Assembly (NCBI GenBank): GCA_022844045.1
Contig: JALHMM010000011.1
Coordinates: forward strand, 12,105 to 76,104
DNA from: Reyranellaceae bacterium
GTDB lineage: Bacteria; Pseudomonadota; Alphaproteobacteria; Reyranellales; Reyranellaceae
Direction: 5' to 3'
DNA: 64,000 nt
The notes beneath the pieces were generated by a model. The model did not search any database and had not been told where the DNA came from. It worked only from the letters and a program-made list of their open reading frames with translations. The translations under genes and the position numbers were made by a program. Shown here in pieces: positions 10,845 through 48,309 of the stretch (its first letter is position 1; every line of letters starts with the position of its first letter).

Positions 10845-11594
10845 ATGGGCGACGGCGCGGCCTATGTCGCGCCGGCCATGGATGTCGATCCCGCACCGCA
10901 TATCCGCACGCTCTACGGCCGCCGCCAGGGCAAGAAGCTGCGCGCCCACCAGCAGGCGCTGCTTGACGATCTTCTGCCGCGCCTGCGCGTGCCGGTGACC
11001 CACAGCCTCGATCCCGCCGATCACAAGAGCCCGCTCGACCTCGCCGCCCTGTTCGGCCGCGTCATGCCCGGCGGCATCTGGCTCGAGGTCGGCTTCGGCG
11101 CCGGCGAGCATCTGGCATGGCAGGCCGAGCAGCGTCGCGACGTCGGGTTGATCGGCTGTGAGCCCTACATCAACGGCGTCGCCAAGGCGCTGGCGCATCT
11201 CGAGCGGCTGGCCGTCGACAACGTGCGCATCCACGACAACGACGCGCGCTTCGTCATGGCCGCGCTGCCGCCCCGGTCGCTGACGCGCGCTTTCGTCCTG
11301 TTCCCCGATCCCTGGCCCAAGGCGCGGCATCACAAGCGTCGTTTCGTCTGCCGCGAGAACCTCGACCGCCTGGCGACGTTGATGGTCGGCGGCGCCGAAC
11401 TGCGGCTGGCGACCGACGATCCGAGCTACCTGCCGTGGATGGTCGAGCACGCCTGCCTGCATCCGGCTTTCGAGTGGCTCGCCGAACGGCCCGGCGATTG
11501 GCGCACGCGACCTGAGGATTGGCCGCCGACGCGCTACGAACGCAAGATGCTGGCTGGCCACACGCCGACGTTTCTGCGACTGCGACGGCGTTAG
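10845..11594 (+). CDS. trmB: tRNA (guanine-N7-)-methyltransferase
   Basis: TrmB methylates G46 in the variable loop of tRNAs using SAM. The 249-residue protein shows the family start RTLYGRRQGKKLRAHQQALL, SAM motif I EVGFGAGEHLAWQAEQ, GCEPYINGVAKALAHL, the acidic NVRIHDNDARFVM and the hallmark LFPDPWPKARHHKRRFV. The family region begins after residue 12, so an ATG at 10878 is an alternative start. It overlaps the convergent methyltransferase-fusion gene by 4 bp at its end. Confidence 0.93.
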   Translation: MGDGAAYVAPAMDVDPAPHIRTLYGRRQGKKLRAHQQALLDDLLPRLRVPVTHSLDPADHKSPLDLAALFGRVMPGGIWLEVGFGAGEHLAWQAEQRRDVGLIGCEPYINGVAKALAHLERLAVDNVRIHDNDARFVMAALPPRSLTRAFVLFPDPWPKARHHKRRFVCRENLDRLATLMVGGAELRLATDDPSYLPWMVEHACLHPAFEWLAERPGDWRTRPEDWPPTRYERKMLAGHTPTFLRLRRR

Positions 11595-13204
11595 CCGCCC
11601 TTGCGCAGCGTCGCCATGTAATGCGCGCTCCAGATGCGCAAATGTGATCCCTCCAGCCGCCGTTCCAAGGGCAGTAGCGGCCGCATCACCACGCCGGGCA
11701 CGAAGTCGGGCAGGAAGGTGATGTAGTCGACGTCCTCGCCCCAGCGCGCGCCTGCGACCTCGGGGAGATGGTGGGGCAGCAGCCATTTCTCGGTGCCGTC
11801 GTCGATGCGGTTGAGCAGCGGGAAGAGATAGCTCATGTATAGCCGGAACAGCGGGTTGCGCGTGTTCATCTCGTGCAGCAGAAACACGCCGCCGGGCTTC
11901 AGCACACGTACGATCTCCTGCCAGGCCCTGGCGCGCACCACCTCGTCGGTGACGTGGTGCAGCACGTTGACGCTGTAGACGAAGTCGAAGCTGCCGTCGG
12001 CATAGGGCAGGCCATCGACGCTGGCGACGGCGAAGCCCAGCGTGCGGCCCTGTCGCGCCGCGTTGTCGCGCGCGGCGGCGACCTGCCCCGGCGTCAGGTC
12101 GCAACCGTCCATGCGCCAGCCGCGCGCCGCCATGTCCAGCGCGTACCAGCCATGGCCGCAGCCCAGATCGAGGCCGCGCCCACCGCCGGCGATCGACAGC
12201 GACGCCAGCCGCTTCTCCATCAGCGCGATCTTGCGACCCAGCAGCCGCTCGCGCACGTGCGGCGGGATTTCCTCGGCGTATTGCGGCGCCAGCTCGTCGA
12301 AATGCGTCTGCGCGCCCGATGCGCGGCCCAGGAACATGTCGATGCCGTCGCGCCAGCGCGCCGCCCACCACGCCGCGCCGACACAAGCCGAGAAGATCGT
12401 CGTGCCGACGCGCACCGCCAGCGTCGTGCCAGCGGCGATCGCCGTCGCGACGCCCAACGACTCGAGCTGGCCGATCATGATCGCGCCGGTGGTCGCCATG
12501 CCGCCGGGCGAGCCGGTGACGCCGCCCAGCAGGGTGGCGCTGGCGAAGGCGCGCATCGCCGCCAGCGGATCGATCAGCGCGCCGCTCAGCGCGGAGACGA
12601 CCGCGATCGACAGCGCAGCCGGCACCCAGCCGGCGATGCTCAGGCCGATATAGACGGTCAGGGTCGTCGGCCACGACGCCTGCGCATCGCGCACGGAGGT
12701 ATGCACGATGATCGCCGCGGCGATCACGGTTAGCAGCACCAGTAGCGCCAGCGCGCCCCATAGATCGCCCAGCACGATCAGCAGCGCCAGCGCGCCGACG
12801 TCTCCGCCGCGCGCCAGCAACCAGGCGACCACGCCGGCGCGCGCCGGCCGAGCGGTCCAGCGCCGCAGCGCCGCGATCTGCGCCAGCTCACCCAGGGTGA
12901 AGGGCGTCAGGATCGCCGGCAGCAGAAAGACGAAGAGCTGTGCGCTCTCGCGCGCCGGCGGCCGCACGCCCAGCGCGCGCAGCAGGAAGTGCCAACGCAG
13001 CCAACGCAACGCCAGGTTCACGACCGTCAGCGCGGCGGTGACGATGACGCCGGCGACCAGCGTGACCAGCCCGACCTCGCGCGCCTTGCCGGCCTGCTCG
13101 CCGCCGAGCCACAGCGCCGTCGACACGCCGCCGATCAGCAGCGCCGCGGCAGCCGAGATCGCCAGCAGGCGCAACAGCCGCCTGGGGCGGCCCGTTCCGG
13201 CCAT
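11591..13204 (-). CDS. Membrane flippase-like domain fused to a SAM-dependent methyltransferase
   Basis: This 537-residue protein has two parts. Residues 1 to about 285 form 7-8 membrane helices resembling the lysylphosphatidylglycerol-synthase-type transmembrane (UPF0104/AglD-like) domain, with the conserved-looking LLPAILTPFTLGELAQI and GGVTGSPGGMATTGA segments. Residues from about 300 form a class I methyltransferase: motif I GLDLGCGHGWYALDMAA (344-360), CDLTPGQVAAARDNAA, then FDFVYSVNVLHHVTDE and LKPGGVFLLHEMNTRNP. The C-terminus resembles ubiquinone/lipid-type methyltransferases. It likely acts on a membrane lipid or polyprenyl-linked substrate, which is inference. It converges on trmB with a 4-bp overlap. 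Confidence 0.8.
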   Translation of the reverse strand: MAGTGRPRRLLRLLAISAAAALLIGGVSTALWLGGEQAGKAREVGLVTLVAGVIVTAALTVVNLALRWLRWHFLLRALGVRPPARESAQLFVFLLPAILTPFTLGELAQIAALRRWTARPARAGVVAWLLARGGDVGALALLIVLGDLWGALALLVLLTVIAAAIIVHTSVRDAQASWPTTLTVYIGLSIAGWVPAALSIAVVSALSGALIDPLAAMRAFASATLLGGVTGSPGGMATTGAIMIGQLESLGVATAIAAGTTLAVRVGTTIFSACVGAAWWAARWRDGIDMFLGRASGAQTHFDELAPQYAEEIPPHVRERLLGRKIALMEKRLASLSIAGGGRGLDLGCGHGWYALDMAARGWRMDGCDLTPGQVAAARDNAARQGRTLGFAVASVDGLPYADGSFDFVYSVNVLHHVTDEVVRARAWQEIVRVLKPGGVFLLHEMNTRNPLFRLYMSYLFPLLNRIDDGTEKWLLPHHLPEVAGARWGEDVDYITFLPDFVPGVVMRPLLPLERRLEGSHLRIWSAHYMATLRKGG

Positions 13205-42013: not shown

Positions 42014-44932
42014 CTAGATATAGGTGACGAACTCGAAGCCACCGAGGCCGCCGCGGGCGGTCGGGTCCCAGGTGTAGAACTCCTGGAACTGGCCGATCGG
42101 GGCGTCGTGGTTCCACAGCGTGATGTCGGCGAACAGCAGCGGGTTGAAGGTGACCGTGCCGCCGCCGGTGACGCCGACGGTGACGCTGGTGGCGGAGTTG
42201 TAGGTGACGTTGACGTTGCCGGTCTGCGCGGCTGGGTTGCTGTGGTCGCCCAGCACGTGGCCGACGTTGAGCACCTCGCCGGCATCGGTTTCGCGGACGC
42301 CGCTGCCGATGGTGAACATCTGCGGCGGTGTCGAGTTGTCCGTTGTTTCCCAGTAGGTGCCGAAGATCACCAGGTGATTGACGGAGCCCTCGCCGCTGAT
42401 CTCGTTGACTGTCGCCGTGCCGTCGCTGCGGCTGAAATAGTACCAATCGGCGCCGTTGCCGCCGGCCAGCACATCGATGCCAGGCCCGCCGTAGATGTAA
42501 TCGTCGCCGTCACCGCCGGTGACGGTGTCGTTTCCCGAACCACCCCAGATCGCGTCGGCGCCGCCGCCGCCGTCGATGACGTCGTTGCCGGCGTAGACCG
42601 AGATCACGTCGTCGCCCAGGCCGCCAAAGACCACGTCGTTGCTGGTCGTGACGTTGAGCGAGTTACGGCCTCCGAGGTCGAGGATGTAGTCGTCGCCGTC
42701 GCCGCCATAGATCGTGTCGTTGCCCATAACGGGCGAGGTCGTCAGGCCCCAATCGCTCTGGTCGGACCAGATCTCGTCGTTGCCAAGACCGCCATAGGTG
42801 AGGTCGGACCCGCCCTGCGAATACACGATGTCGTCGCCATCGGCGCCGTACAGCGTGTCGTTGCCGCCCTCGCCGCCGGTGCCGGTGATCGAGTCGTTGA
42901 AGTCGTCGCCCCAGATCTGGTCGTTGCCGTCGCCGCCCCAGATCGTATCGGCCGTGCCGCTCGCCGCGGCGGCCGCGGTCATGCTGCCGCCGACCAGCAG
43001 GTCGTTGCCGGCGCCGGAGACGATCACATCGCCGCCTCCCAGGCCGGTGACGGTGACGTTGTCGGTGATCGCGACGGTCGTGGTGCCGGTGCTGTTGGCG
43101 AAGCTCAGATTGACGATATCGGCGTTGTTGGAGGCGATGAAGTATTCCGCCGCCAGGATCCAGTCGAGATTGGCGTCCTTGCCGGAGCGGATGTACTGCG
43201 ATGTCGTGTTGGCGGGGTCACGCGAGGCATCGACCGTGTCGAAGCCGCTGCCGCCATAGAGGCGGTCCGACGTGTCCTGGTAGTTCGCGAAGTTCAGCGT
43301 GATCAGGCCGCCCGATGCCTCGCCGGTCCAGCCATAAAAGGGGCCGCTGACCTGAGCGGCGCTGCCCCCGTTGCTGAACACCATGGTGTCGTCGCCGGCC
43401 TCGCCGTAGAGCCTGTCGGCCGTCGCGCCGCCGCCACCGGCGATGCTGGTAAAACCGCTCAGGAAGTCGTTGCCATCGCCGCCATAGAACAACTCAAAGC
43501 CACCACCGCCCACAAACCAGTCGTCGCCCAGGCCGCCATACGCGGTGTCATCGGAGTCCGCGCCGACAAACGAGTCGTTGAAGGTCGAGCCGATATAGCC
43601 GGTGATGTTGGTGTAGCTGTCACCGGCGGCGTCGCCAGTGTTGTTGGCGGTGTCGTCCAGATCGATGATGACGCCGGCGGTCGCCGAAGTATAGGCGGCG
43701 AAGTTGATGCCGGTGCCGCCGTCGAGGGCATCCGCGCCGGCGCCCCCTTCGAGCGTGTCGTCGCCGGCATCGCCGAACAAGCTGTCGTTGCCTGCGTCAC
43801 CCCATATGGTGTCGTTGCCATCGCCGCCACCGGCGGTATCGGCATCGGCGCCGCCGTAAACGGTGTCGTTGCCGGCGTCGCCGGTCAAACTGTCGGTGCC
43901 TGCGTCACCCCACACGACGTCGTTGCCATCACCGCCAGACAGGCCGTCGGCGTCGGCGCCGCCGTAGATTGTGTCGGCGCCGCCCGTGGCGAAGATCAGA
44001 TCGTTGCCGGCATTGCCGTAGAGGATGTCGAGGTTGTCGGTAGTGGTGCTGGTTGTGCTTGCCGACGAGTCGTCGCCCAGCAGCGCATCGTTGCCGTCGC
44101 CGCCATAGAGCGTGTCGATGTCGCCTAAACCGACGCCGCCAGAGAGGATGTCGTTGCCGCCGGCACCGTACAGGGTGTCGCTGCCGGCGTCGCCTAAGAG
44201 GAAGTCGGCGCCGTCGCTGGCGCCGCTGGTCGTCGTGCTGGCGGAATCGTCGCCGACGACGAGGTCGGCGCCGTCACCGCCATAGACGGTGTCGACACCT
44301 GTACCGCCGAACAGCGAGTCCACCGCTCCGGCGCCATAGATCGTATCGGCGCCGCTGCCGCCGTAGAGGAAATCGGCGCCATCGCTGGCGCCGCTCGTGG
44401 TGCGGCTGAGGCTGGAATCGCCGGCCAGCACGTCGCTGCCGGCGGCGCCGTAGACGGTGTCGGAATCGGCGTCGCCGAACACCGTGTCATTGCCCGAATC
44501 CTCCCACACCACGTCGTTGCCGGTGCCGCCGTAAATCGTGGTGGCGCGGGCCAGCGCGGTGCCGCCGGAGATACTGGTGAAGCTGAAGATGTCGTTGCCG
44601 GCGCCGCCGAACCAGTCCTCGATATGGGCGTTGTTGCTGCCGCGATTCCAGCCGTAGCGAGAGGCGCCGTTGGCGGTGGCGCGCGCGCCGGCGTCGAGGG
44701 CGAAGTCGTCCCAGATGAACAGATCGTTCGCGGCGGAGCCTACGACCGAGTCGTTGGCGCCTGTGCCGTTGGGGATGGTGACGTTGTTGACCTCGTAGCC
44801 GGCGACGTTGACCGTGTCGGCCGTTGCCACGCCCGCTTCGTTATAGCGCGTCAGAACAACGGTGCCGCTGCCCAGCGTCGCTGTGGACACGCTGCTGCTG
44901 GTTCCACCGTTGTTGACGAACGTATAGGGCAT
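42014..44932 (-). CDS. Large RTX-type calcium-binding repeat protein (copy 1)
   Basis: The 972-residue protein is dominated by glycine/aspartate nonapeptides of the GGxGxDxLx type (YGGDGNDALLGDD, WGGDGNDQIWGDD, many others), which fold into calcium-bound beta-rolls. N-terminally there is a repeat-free cap of about 130 residues (MPYTFVNNGG..., then DLFIWDDFALDAG). A central non-repeat block contains GKDANLDWILAAEYFIAS. The C-terminus (NPLLFADITLWNH, FYTWDPTARGGLGGF) has no repeats and may hold the type I secretion signal. I see one lysine and no cysteine. No signal peptide and no secretion genes are nearby. It is paralogous to the gene at 45484-48309. Confidence 0.92.
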   Translation of the reverse strand: MPYTFVNNGGTSSSVSTATLGSGTVVLTRYNEAGVATADTVNVAGYEVNNVTIPNGTGANDSVVGSAANDLFIWDDFALDAGARATANGASRYGWNRGSNNAHIEDWFGGAGNDIFSFTSISGGTALARATTIYGGTGNDVVWEDSGNDTVFGDADSDTVYGAAGSDVLAGDSSLSRTTSGASDGADFLYGGSGADTIYGAGAVDSLFGGTGVDTVYGGDGADLVVGDDSASTTTSGASDGADFLLGDAGSDTLYGAGGNDILSGGVGLGDIDTLYGGDGNDALLGDDSSASTTSTTTDNLDILYGNAGNDLIFATGGADTIYGGADADGLSGGDGNDVVWGDAGTDSLTGDAGNDTVYGGADADTAGGGDGNDTIWGDAGNDSLFGDAGDDTLEGGAGADALDGGTGINFAAYTSATAGVIIDLDDTANNTGDAAGDSYTNITGYIGSTFNDSFVGADSDDTAYGGLGDDWFVGGGGFELFYGGDGNDFLSGFTSIAGGGGATADRLYGEAGDDTMVFSNGGSAAQVSGPFYGWTGEASGGLITLNFANYQDTSDRLYGGSGFDTVDASRDPANTTSQYIRSGKDANLDWILAAEYFIASNNADIVNLSFANSTGTTTVAITDNVTVTGLGGGDVIVSGAGNDLLVGGSMTAAAAASGTADTIWGGDGNDQIWGDDFNDSITGTGGEGGNDTLYGADGDDIVYSQGGSDLTYGGLGNDEIWSDQSDWGLTTSPVMGNDTIYGGDGDDYILDLGGRNSLNVTTSNDVVFGGLGDDVISVYAGNDVIDGGGGADAIWGGSGNDTVTGGDGDDYIYGGPGIDVLAGGNGADWYYFSRSDGTATVNEISGEGSVNHLVIFGTYWETTDNSTPPQMFTIGSGVRETDAGEVLNVGHVLGDHSNPAAQTGNVNVTYNSATSVTVGVTGGGTVTFNPLLFADITLWNHDAPIGQFQEFYTWDPTARGGLGGFEFVTYI

Positions 44933-45151
44933 GGTCGGCGTCCCTCACCCATCAGCCTGTCGAAATCACCGGCAGCCCGCAGGAAATACTGTACCCACGA
45001 CACGCGAGGGGCGTGGACAGCGAGACACCCATTCAGGGTATTAGTGGAGTCCACTACCCTCTATCAAAAGATATATGCGTGATATCAACGTCATCATGAA
45101 ATCTACTGATGTAGTGCTAAAGTTTGATTTCAATCTCGCTGAAACAATGAT
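44933..45151 (-). promoter_or_regulatory. AT-rich leader of RTX copy 1, with a palindrome
   Basis: This 219-bp gap before RTX copy 1 is much more AT-rich than the genes around it and is related to the leader of copy 2 (48310-48545). It contains the palindrome TAGTGGA-G-TCCACTA at 45042-45056, extended outward by AGGGT and ACCCT with a two-base bulge. This is a candidate operator or RNA hairpin; copy 2 has only one TAGTGGA half-site. Confidence 0.45.
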
Positions 45152-45425
45152 TTTGCCCGGGCTCTTGCGGCTGACGCTGGCGTCATCGAGGAGCGCGATG
45201 CCGTCGAGACAAGCGCATCCAGCGTTCAGGAGCAAGACAGCGAGAGCGGCGGCCTAGGCTTTGCCCAGCCGCACGCAACAGTCCAGGAGTGGTGATTCTT
45301 GCAGTCGCCGCGCACAGCGCCCCGTGCGTCACATGGACGGCGGGTAATGATTCGAAGCCTTCGGAACGAGTCGGCGTATCACGGCGGCGGCGGCCGTGCC
45401 GGCGTAGCCGCCCAGCGGCGCACGG
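45152..45425 (-). pseudogene. cobT: Decayed 3' fragment of cobT
   Basis: On the minus strand, LLNAGCACLDGIALLDDASV matches the C-terminus of the intact CobT (LLKAACACLDGMASFDDAGV). DNA similarity extends from the stop codon region upstream to about 45425, including CTTCAGGAG and ACGGCGGCGGCGGCCGTG blocks; in one 55-base stretch I count 9 differences. Frames are broken by indels, and the 5' three-quarters of the gene is missing. It lies in front of RTX copy 1 exactly as the intact cobT lies in front of RTX copy 2. Confidence 0.8.
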
Positions 45426-45483
45426 CCTCCACGCGGCTCCGGGGATCAGCTTGGAGCCGCCGGATGGTCAGCGTCGCGGCCGA

Positions 45484-48309
45484 TCAACCGATATAGTCGA
45501 CGAACTCGAAGCCGCCCAAGCCGGCGCCGCGGGCGTTCGGATCCCAGGTGTAGAACTCCTGGATCTGGTGTCCGATCGTGGCGTCGTGGTTCCACAGCGT
45601 GATGTCGGCGAACAGCAGCGGGTTGAAGGTGATCGCGGCGCCGCTGCCGGCAACGCTGACGGTGATGCTGGTGGCCGAGTTGTAGGTGACGTTGACGTTG
45701 CCGGTCTGCGCGGCGGTGTCGCTGTGGTTGCCCAGCACATGGCCGACACTGAGGAGCTCGCCGACATCGGTTTCGCGCACGCCGCTGCCGATGGTGAGCA
45801 TCTGCGGCGGCGTCGAATTGTCGGACGTCTCCCAGAAGGTTCCGAAGATCACCAGGTGGTTGACGGCGCCTTCGCCCAAGACCTCGTTGACGATCGTCGT
45901 GCCGTCGCTGCGGCTGAAATAGTACCAGTCGGCGCCGGCGCCGCCCTCCAGCGTGTCGCCCGTGCCGGCGCCGCCATAGATGTAATCGTCGCCGGTGCCG
46001 CCGTAGACCGTATCGGTGCCCGGGCCGCTCCAGATCGCATCGTTGCCGCTGCCGCTGTCGATCACGTCGTTGCCGGCGAAGACCGAGATCACGTCGTTGC
46101 CGATGCCGCCATAGACCAGGTCGTTGCTGGTCGTGACACTGAGCGAGTTGCGGCCGCCGAGGTCGAGGATGAAGTCGTCGCCGTCGCCGCCATAAATCGT
46201 GTCGTTGCCCATCACGGACGAGGTCGTCAGACCCCAGTCACCCTGGTCGGACCAGACCACATCGTTGCCGAGACCGCCGTAGGAGATGTCCGAGCCGCCT
46301 TGCGACAGCACCGTGTCGTCGCCATCGGCGCCATACAGCGTGTCGTTGCCACCTTCGCCGCCGGTGCCGGTGATCGAGTCGTTGAAGTCGTCGCCCCAGA
46401 TCTGGTCGTTGCCGTCGCCGCCCCAGATCGTGTCGGCCGTGCCGCCCGTCGCCGCGGCCGCGGTCAAGCCGCCGCCGACCAGCACGTCGTTGCCGGCGCC
46501 GGAGATGATGATATCGTTGCCTTCGAGGCCGGTCACCGTGACGCTGTCGGTGATCGCCGCCTGGCCGATCGTGGTGCCAGCGCTGAAGCTCAAGTTGACG
46601 ATGTCGGCGGCATTGGAGGCGATGAAGAGCTCCGCCGACAGGATCCAGTCGAGGTTGGCGTCCTTGCCGGCGCGAATGAACTGCTGCTGCGTGCTCGCCG
46701 GCACCAGCGAGGCGTCCACCGTGTCGAAGCCGCTGCCGCCATAGAGGCGGTCCGTCGTGTCCTGGTGGCCGCTCAGCGTCAGCGTGATGACGCTCGAGGC
46801 ACCGGTCTCGCCCGTCCAGCCGTAGAATGTGCCGGTGACCGGGGCGCCGCTGCCTTCGTTGCTGAACAGCATCCTGTCATCGCCGGCGCCGCCGTACAGC
46901 GTGTCGGGCAAGCCGCCACCGGCGACACCCGTCATGCCGCTCATGAAGTCATTGCCGTCGCCGCCGTAGAGCGTGTCGGCGCCGCCATTGCCGCCCTGGA
47001 GCCAGTCGTCGCCCAGGCCGCCATACTCGATGTCGCCGCCGCCCGAGCCGAACATCGTGTCGTTGAAGGTCGAGCCGATATAGCCCGTGATGTTGGTGTA
47101 GCTGTCGCCGGCGGCGTCGCCGGTATTGTTGGCGACGTTGTCCAGGTCGAGCGTGACGCCGGCGGTCGCGGAGGTATAGACGGCGTAGTTGATGCCGGTG
47201 CCGCCATCGAGCGCGTCCGCGCCCGCGCCGCCATCGAGCAGGTCGTCGCCGGCGTCGCCGAACAGCAGGTCGTCGGCCGCGTCGCCCTGCAGGGCATCGT
47301 CGCCGTCACCACCATAAACCGTGTCGGCGTCGGCCCCGCCGTATCCGGTGTCGGCCCCACCGCCGCCATACATCGTATCGGTGCCGGCATTGCCAAATAG
47401 GACATCGGCGCCGTCGGTGGTGCTGCTGGTCGTGATCGACGCCGAGTTGTCGCCGATAACCAGATCGCTACCGTCGCCGCCGTAGAGTGTGTCGACGTCG
47501 CCAGAACCGGCGCCGCCAAAGAGCGTGTCGCCGCCGCCGGCGCCGAACATGGCGTCGCTGCCGGCGTCGCCGAACAGGATGTCGGCGCCGTCGCTGGCGC
47601 CACTGGTTGTCGTGCTCGCCGAATCGTCGCCGGCGACGAAATCGGCGCCGTCACCGCCATAGACGGTGTCGACACCCGTGCCGCCGAACAGCGAGTCGAC
47701 CGCACCGGCGCCGTAAAGAATGTCGGTGCCGCTGCCGCCGTAGAGGAAATCGGCGCCATCGCTGGCACCGCTCGTGGTGCGGCTGAGGCTGGAATCGCCG
47801 GCCAGGACGTCGCTGCCGGCGGCGCCGTAGACGGTGTCGGAATCGGCGTCGCCGAACACCGTGTCGGCGCCGGAATCGGTCCAGGCAATGTCGTTGCCGA
47901 TGCCGCCGTAGATCGTGACGGCGCGGGCCAGCGCGGTGCCGCCGGAAATGCTGGTGAAGGCGAAGACGTCGTTGCCGGCGCCGCCGAACCAGTCCTCGAT
48001 ATGCGCGTTGGTGCTGCCGCGGTTCCAGCCGGTGCGAGAGGCGCCGTTGGCGGTGGCTTGTGCGCTGGCTTGGAGGGCGAAGTCGTCCCAGATGAACAGG
48101 TCGTTGCCGGTAGAGCCGACGACGGAGTCGTTGGCGCCCGTACCGTTGGGGATGGTGACGTTGTTGACGTTGTAGCCGGCGACGTTGACCGTGTTGGTCG
48201 TGGCCGCGCCCGCTTCGTCGTAGCGTGTCAGGACGACGGTGCCGCTGGCCAGCGTTGCCGTGGTCACGCCGCTGCTGCCACCACCGTTGTTGACGAACGT
48301 ATACGGCAT
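45484..48309 (-). CDS. Large RTX-type calcium-binding repeat protein (copy 2)
   Basis: The 941-residue protein is a close paralogue of copy 1. It shares the N-terminal cap (MPYTFVNNGGGSSGVTTATL, then NGTGANDSVVGS), the central GKDANLDWILSAELFIAS block, the spacers TTSGASDGADFL between nonapeptide runs, and the C-terminus (FNPLLFADITLWNH, FYTWDPNARGAGLGGFEF). Differences are mostly in the number of nonapeptides and in surface residues. I see one lysine, in the same position as in copy 1, and no cysteine. It should be a secreted or surface protein using calcium to fold. No type I exporter is encoded nearby. Confidence 0.92.
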   Translation of the reverse strand: MPYTFVNNGGGSSGVTTATLASGTVVLTRYDEAGAATTNTVNVAGYNVNNVTIPNGTGANDSVVGSTGNDLFIWDDFALQASAQATANGASRTGWNRGSTNAHIEDWFGGAGNDVFAFTSISGGTALARAVTIYGGIGNDIAWTDSGADTVFGDADSDTVYGAAGSDVLAGDSSLSRTTSGASDGADFLYGGSGTDILYGAGAVDSLFGGTGVDTVYGGDGADFVAGDDSASTTTSGASDGADILFGDAGSDAMFGAGGGDTLFGGAGSGDVDTLYGGDGSDLVIGDNSASITTSSTTDGADVLFGNAGTDTMYGGGGADTGYGGADADTVYGGDGDDALQGDAADDLLFGDAGDDLLDGGAGADALDGGTGINYAVYTSATAGVTLDLDNVANNTGDAAGDSYTNITGYIGSTFNDTMFGSGGGDIEYGGLGDDWLQGGNGGADTLYGGDGNDFMSGMTGVAGGGLPDTLYGGAGDDRMLFSNEGSGAPVTGTFYGWTGETGASSVITLTLSGHQDTTDRLYGGSGFDTVDASLVPASTQQQFIRAGKDANLDWILSAELFIASNAADIVNLSFSAGTTIGQAAITDSVTVTGLEGNDIIISGAGNDVLVGGGLTAAAATGGTADTIWGGDGNDQIWGDDFNDSITGTGGEGGNDTLYGADGDDTVLSQGGSDISYGGLGNDVVWSDQGDWGLTTSSVMGNDTIYGGDGDDFILDLGGRNSLSVTTSNDLVYGGIGNDVISVFAGNDVIDSGSGNDAIWSGPGTDTVYGGTGDDYIYGGAGTGDTLEGGAGADWYYFSRSDGTTIVNEVLGEGAVNHLVIFGTFWETSDNSTPPQMLTIGSGVRETDVGELLSVGHVLGNHSDTAAQTGNVNVTYNSATSITVSVAGSGAAITFNPLLFADITLWNHDATIGHQIQEFYTWDPNARGAGLGGFEFVDYIG

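Follow-up and report, generated by a model that had tools for sequence, protein, structure and literature searches.

A rare protein joining an MprF-type membrane domain to a class I methyltransferase, with a possible role in the metabolism of lipid-linked sugars

The window analyzed here, a stretch of 64,000 nucleotides from a Reyranellaceae bacterium, carries on its minus strand a gene whose product joins a membrane domain to a methyltransferase. The frame at 11591-13204 is open over all 537 codons without interruption, and its ATG is preceded by an AAAGGA-like ribosome-binding site. The gene lies between lnt/trmB and a Rieske oxygenase gene, and no glycosyltransferase gene adjoins it. The features of the gene are as follows:

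11591..13204, minus strand: gene of the fusion protein (537 aa), an intact reading frame with PF03706 and PF08241 above cut-off and orthologous fusions elsewhere
12350..13189, minus strand: membrane domain, residues 6-285, from AlphaFold2 models and Foldseek matches to MprF
12485..12487, minus strand: Gly240 codon, at the position of the gating acid Glu280 of RtMprF in a profile alignment to 7f47
12410..12412, minus strand: Arg265 codon, at the position of MprF Arg304, invariant in the fusions
12263..12349, minus strand: linker, residues 286-314, with low AlphaFold2 confidence at 298-309
11594..12304, minus strand: class I methyltransferase domain, residues 301-537, from Pfam and PDB matches
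12140..12178, minus strand: SAM-binding motif I, residues 343-355 (RGLDLGCGHGWYA), conserved in every fusion sequence that includes it
11954..11959, minus strand: His416-His417 pair, aligned with the His-His of RebM (3bus) and invariant in the fusions
11735..11866, minus strand: C-terminal cap N.xNPLFR.Y..Y.FP....ID.GTE.W, residues 447-490, conserved in the fusions

The Pfam model LPG_synthase_TM (PF03706) matches residues 32-276 at 35.3 bits (cut-off 33.4) and Methyltransf_11 (PF08241) matches residues 345-442 at 87.2 bits (cut-off 21.2); a PF13649 match in the C-terminal half, at 81.5 bits, is likewise above its Pfam cut-off. The two orthologs tested score 46.9 and 33.7 bits with PF03706, and each exceeds both Pfam cut-offs. 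None of the NCBIfam models listed for the window protein reaches its cut-off, the specific matches falling far below; therefore no existing curated name fits the protein. The initial annotation had read this frame as a fusion of an LPG-synthase-type transmembrane half and a class I SAM methyltransferase half. The reading frame is single and intact, both Pfam cut-offs are passed and the same domain order recurs in frame in other genomes, so that the fusion is real; the PF03706 score together with a fold search bears out the first half, and the motifs DLGCGHGW (residues 346-353) and LKPGGVFLLHE (435-445) bear out the second. Single-frame orthologs in several genomes rule out a frameshift or assembly artefact.

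Full fusions in one frame occur at loci L027 (548 aa analyzed), L040 (536), L054 (531), L055 (555) and L056 (550), and at L028, from an Anaerolineaceae MAG, the 5' part of the fusion is lost in an assembly gap (a run of N). The L027 protein, from a Verrucomicrobiia MAG, is 43% identical to the window protein over almost its entire length. L027 and L028 came from a scan in which each species was represented by one genome and the search patterns derived from a single sequence. Profile searches added genomes G398 (L040) and G814, both in one order, G1194 (L054) and G1129 (L055), from the same order as G324, and G1365 (L056), from the same order as G323. In all, nine carriers were found among roughly 1,500 genomes, a sample enriched around known carriers; besides the window genome these are a few Verrucomicrobiota and Chloroflexota and one relative. 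Within the window's bacterial family the fusion is otherwise found only in that relative, G004, as N- and C-terminal pieces at two contig ends, the C-terminal piece being 67% identical to the window protein. No further match at E 1e-25 was found in 299 genomes of the window's phylum, the plasmids searched hold no full-length match, and the fusion was not found in the viral contigs searched. The fusion is thus a rare, scattered protein family.

Between orthologs, identity is 23-40% in the membrane half and 41-53% in the methyltransferase half (means among the fusions, 34% versus 47%), and the two domains are conserved together across three phyla at 31-45% identity. In a tree of the TM domain the fusions form one clade (support 96/96), in which the window protein clusters with those of G398 and G814 (98/97), a grouping that suggests spread of the fusion gene by horizontal transfer. 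The tree of the methyltransferase half, poorly resolved, is compatible with a single origin and was left out of functional inference. The fusion is the sole PF03706 protein found in G398 and in G1129. In G814 (L046:5745-7341) the gene is split across two frames within the methyltransferase part, either by a real frameshift or by a sequencing error. The two pieces in G004 (L044:3196-3724 and L047:1-400) lose their match to the family nearest both contig ends, perhaps through an insertion or an assembly fault.

AlphaFold2 models the entire protein with a mean pLDDT of 85 and the membrane half alone with 87. The membrane half was modelled apart because the top Foldseek list of the whole protein, headed by a UbiE-related protein, held methyltransferases only. 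Its predicted helix order is TM1, TM2, half-helices 3a/3b, TM4, TM5, TM6, half-helices 7a/7b and TM8, the order published for subdomain 1 of RtMprF (PMC8131360). Against the PDB the model matches six MprF structures at probability 1.00, with query TM-scores of 0.54-0.63, all other matches lying at probability 0.54 or less. A sequence profile of the membrane half finds only MprF 7f47 (E = 0.02); weak by itself, this match is to the same protein family as those of the fold search. The membrane half is thus predicted to have the fold of MprF subdomain 1, and structure prediction confirms the MprF-type homology at the level of fold. The fusions also share the core motifs of that subdomain, RxxRW, TPxxxGE, RxxD and PxG. 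As in MprF, an enzyme acting in the cytoplasm follows the membrane part, but in MprF it is a C-terminal DUF2156/GNAT aminoacyltransferase, which the fusion replaces by a methyltransferase, and MprF has a subdomain 2 (TM9-14) that the fusion lacks. The stretch from TM4 to TM6 measures 52-60 residues in the fusions versus 84-108 in full-length stand-alone PF03706 proteins.

The gate of RtMprF, located between its two cavities, is a pair of Glu280 and Arg304 (PMC8131360). Residue numbers in the 7f47 chain differ by 2 from those in that paper; the PAG loop and the YRXXY motif served to match the positions. Each of the eight fusions that cover the site has Gly at the Glu280 position and keeps the equivalent of Arg304, whereas the 13 stand-alone PF03706 proteins sampled all have a charged or polar residue at the Glu280 position. 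The Glu-Arg pair is present in one stand-alone subfamily, and in another both residues are replaced (by Gln/Gln or Asp/His, for example); therefore loss of the acid by itself is not special. Glycine with the arginine retained, by contrast, is absent from all stand-alone relatives sampled and, in the sampled sequences, is special to the fusions. The 7f47 alignment yields no equivalent in the fusions of Asp234, which binds the lysyl group in MprF, and the YRXXY motif is likewise missing from them. Lacking both the aminoacyltransferase and the gate acid, the fusion is not MprF itself.

By its Rossmann-type fold, motif I and PDB structure matches, the C-terminal half belongs to the class I SAM methyltransferases; its best PDB sequence matches include the sugar-acting enzymes RebM and AtmM. 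In WbdD, the site corresponding to His416-His417 has two histidines that help bind the phosphate undergoing methylation; in RebM and NodS a pair of His or of Tyr residues occupies it (PMC3482155). WbdD and RebM thus share with the fusion a fold and a His-His pair near the methyl donor. Their overall identity to its methyltransferase is low, they act on a sugar phosphate and a sugar hydroxyl, respectively, and neither has a flippase-like membrane domain. An assignment as UbiE or UbiG at the equivalog level was rejected on profile scores below cut-off: UbiG reaches 44.3 bits (cut-off 102.95), Ubie_methyltran 34.4 bits, and the UbiE models stay far under their cut-offs. The C-terminal cap is a sequence signature of the family; by analogy with an insertion in UbiG (PMC4796655) we would guess that it faces the membrane.

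Genes for GT-C enzymes (GT87 or PMT_2) adjoin the fusion in four of seven loci, the window not being among them. In G323 and G1365 the adjoining gene, convergent with the fusion, is the sole GT87 found in each genome. Two of the five GT87 genes of G1194 lie divergent from the fusion, and in G1129 a divergent PMT_2 gene is next to it. The chance of GT87 adjoining in at least two of six lineages is about 2e-5, and that of GT87 or PMT_2 adjoining in at least three of six about 1e-5, both values standing without correction for the post hoc choice of family. The GT87 genes of the Verrucomicrobiota and Chloroflexota loci show no similarity by BLAST. The fusions of G398 and G814 are flanked by genes for a secretin-domain protein and a PF03458 protein and by no GT-C gene, that of G324 has no GT-C neighbour, no GT2 gene was identified adjoining any fusion, and no neighbour is constant in all fusion-carrying genomes. 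A GT87 locus on contig C5 of the window genome has no identified partner gene. The nearest stand-alone methyltransferases in the window's bacterial family (~33% identity over ~220 aa) sit in a cluster of order PMT_2 - GT2 - methyltransferase (G005, G017). Neither genome has a PF03706 protein, which rules out the cluster as a split version of the fusion. Two further observations concern gene neighbours. In G1365 a gene for a CAP12/Pycsar effector TIR domain (PF10137; L056:6236-7150) lies just upstream of the fusion. On contig C55 of the window genome (G000; L050:2904-7011) a stand-alone PF03706 gene stands beside UbiA-like prenyltransferase and DprE1/DprE2-like genes, a set resembling the decaprenylphosphoryl-arabinose pathway as assigned by eye from sequence.

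What, then, does the fusion protein do? Our favoured, still tentative reading, to which we give a probability of about 0.4, is that the protein, a SAM-dependent methyltransferase of the membrane, modifies a lipid-linked sugar or the phosphate of that sugar in a pathway that supplies extracytoplasmic glycosyltransferases. We infer the substrate, the methylation site and any flipping by the protein, the substrate being most likely a polyprenyl-phosphate-linked sugar or a glycolipid that accepts that sugar. In this scheme a lipid of the inner leaflet would insert its head group into the cytoplasmic cavity of the MprF-like half, where Arg265, buried, invariant and without its acidic partner, would hold the phosphate of the lipid. 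Methylation by the cytoplasmic half would follow, either at a sugar hydroxyl or at the phosphate, with His416-His417 at the active site; the product would then be let go or handed to the outer leaflet, where a GT-C enzyme such as GT87 would use it. GT87 includes PimE. The donor of this GT-C enzyme is polyprenyl-phosphate-mannose (PMC12041525), and three-component glycosylation systems need a flippase for polyprenyl-phosphate-sugar donors (PMC11127046, PMC7389260). Such systems, GtrB/GtrA/Gtr and CsbB/GtcA/YfhO (lipid-sugar synthase, flippase and GT-C enzyme), would share with the fusion the supply of lipid-linked sugar to a GT-C enzyme on the outside, but their proposed flippases are of the GtrA or MATE type and they have no methyltransferase.

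The lipid-linked-sugar reading is supported by the GT87 and PMT_2 genes beside the fusion in several genomes, by the PMT_2 - GT2 - methyltransferase cluster, by a His pair that matches both the sugar O-methyltransferase RebM and the phosphate-methylating WbdD, by the joint conservation of both domains in three phyla and one TM clade, and by a membrane model that has the order of MprF subdomain 1 and matches MprF structures only. The initial annotation had proposed a lipid- or polyprenyl-linked substrate, moved or held by the membrane part. The neighbours elsewhere and the stand-alone cluster favour such a substrate indirectly; since the gate acid is gone in every fusion, the substrate is about as likely to be held as moved. 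Counting against the reading are the loci of the window, G398/G814 and G324, where no glycosyltransferase adjoins, the lack of PF03706 proteins in the two cluster genomes, the absence of both the gate acid and Asp234 of MprF, and the dissimilarity between Verrucomicrobiota and Chloroflexota GT87 genes. His-His pairs, moreover, are common to many class I methyltransferases.

Alternatively, the membrane half may have ceased to move lipids and now serve as a lipid-binding anchor that presents an inner-leaflet lipid to the methyltransferase, which would explain why the gate acid is gone but the cavity arginine is kept. The invariant Gly, the shortened TM4-TM6 stretch and the lower mean identity of the TM half would all suit an anchor, as would the lack of a counterpart to MprF subdomain 2, part of the lining of the periplasmic cavity (PMC8131360). 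Yet the Glu-Arg pair is missing from other PF03706 subfamilies too, lipid flipping is predicted for the entire family (PMC5898192) and the core motifs are retained; we regard an anchor as possible but on the whole unlikely. More doubtful is a coupled scheme in which a single polypeptide methylates a polyprenyl-phosphate-linked sugar, or its phosphate, on the inner leaflet and lets only the methylated form cross, the lipid phosphate on the invariant arginine taking the place of the gate acid.

The weak Ubie_methyltran and UbiG scores and the UbiE-related protein heading the Foldseek list would fit an enzyme unconnected with glycosylation, methylating the head group of a phospholipid or aminolipid or, like UbiE and UbiG, a quinone, and the window gene does lack an adjoining glycosyltransferase; but with every specific NCBIfam match far under its cut-off and GT-C neighbours in four of seven loci, this seems improbable. 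Least credible is a chance fusion in which two unrelated, uncoupled functions were kept together. Rarity, scatter and the want of a constant neighbour are what such an event would leave behind, but the fusions form one clade over three phyla, both domains are intact, and the linker region is conserved, including the start of the methyltransferase part (HFDELA..Y.E).

The open-licence literature searched holds no paper on a PF03706-methyltransferase architecture, in keeping with the initial annotation, which named no characterized counterpart. The architecture is real, rare and undescribed in that literature, and a variant of the enzyme-plus-PF03706 theme of MprF and AglD. Archaeal proteins of the AglD type also combine a cytoplasmic enzyme with a UPF0104/PF03706 domain in lipid-linked sugar metabolism (PMC5898192), but there the enzyme is an N-terminal glycosyltransferase, whereas in the window fusion it is a C-terminal methyltransferase. 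PF03706 proteins are widespread predicted flippases with mostly unknown substrates; a natural methyltransferase fusion links one of them to an assayable chemical step and offers a gate in which nature has replaced the Glu of MprF by Gly and retained the arginine. Were methylation and translocation coupled, a checkpoint on lipid-linked sugars with WbdD-like logic would be contained in one membrane protein. Elsewhere in the window, at 42017-48309, two adjoining minus-strand reading frames of 972 and 941 aa with near-identical starts (MPYTFVNNGG) form an apparent tandem duplication.
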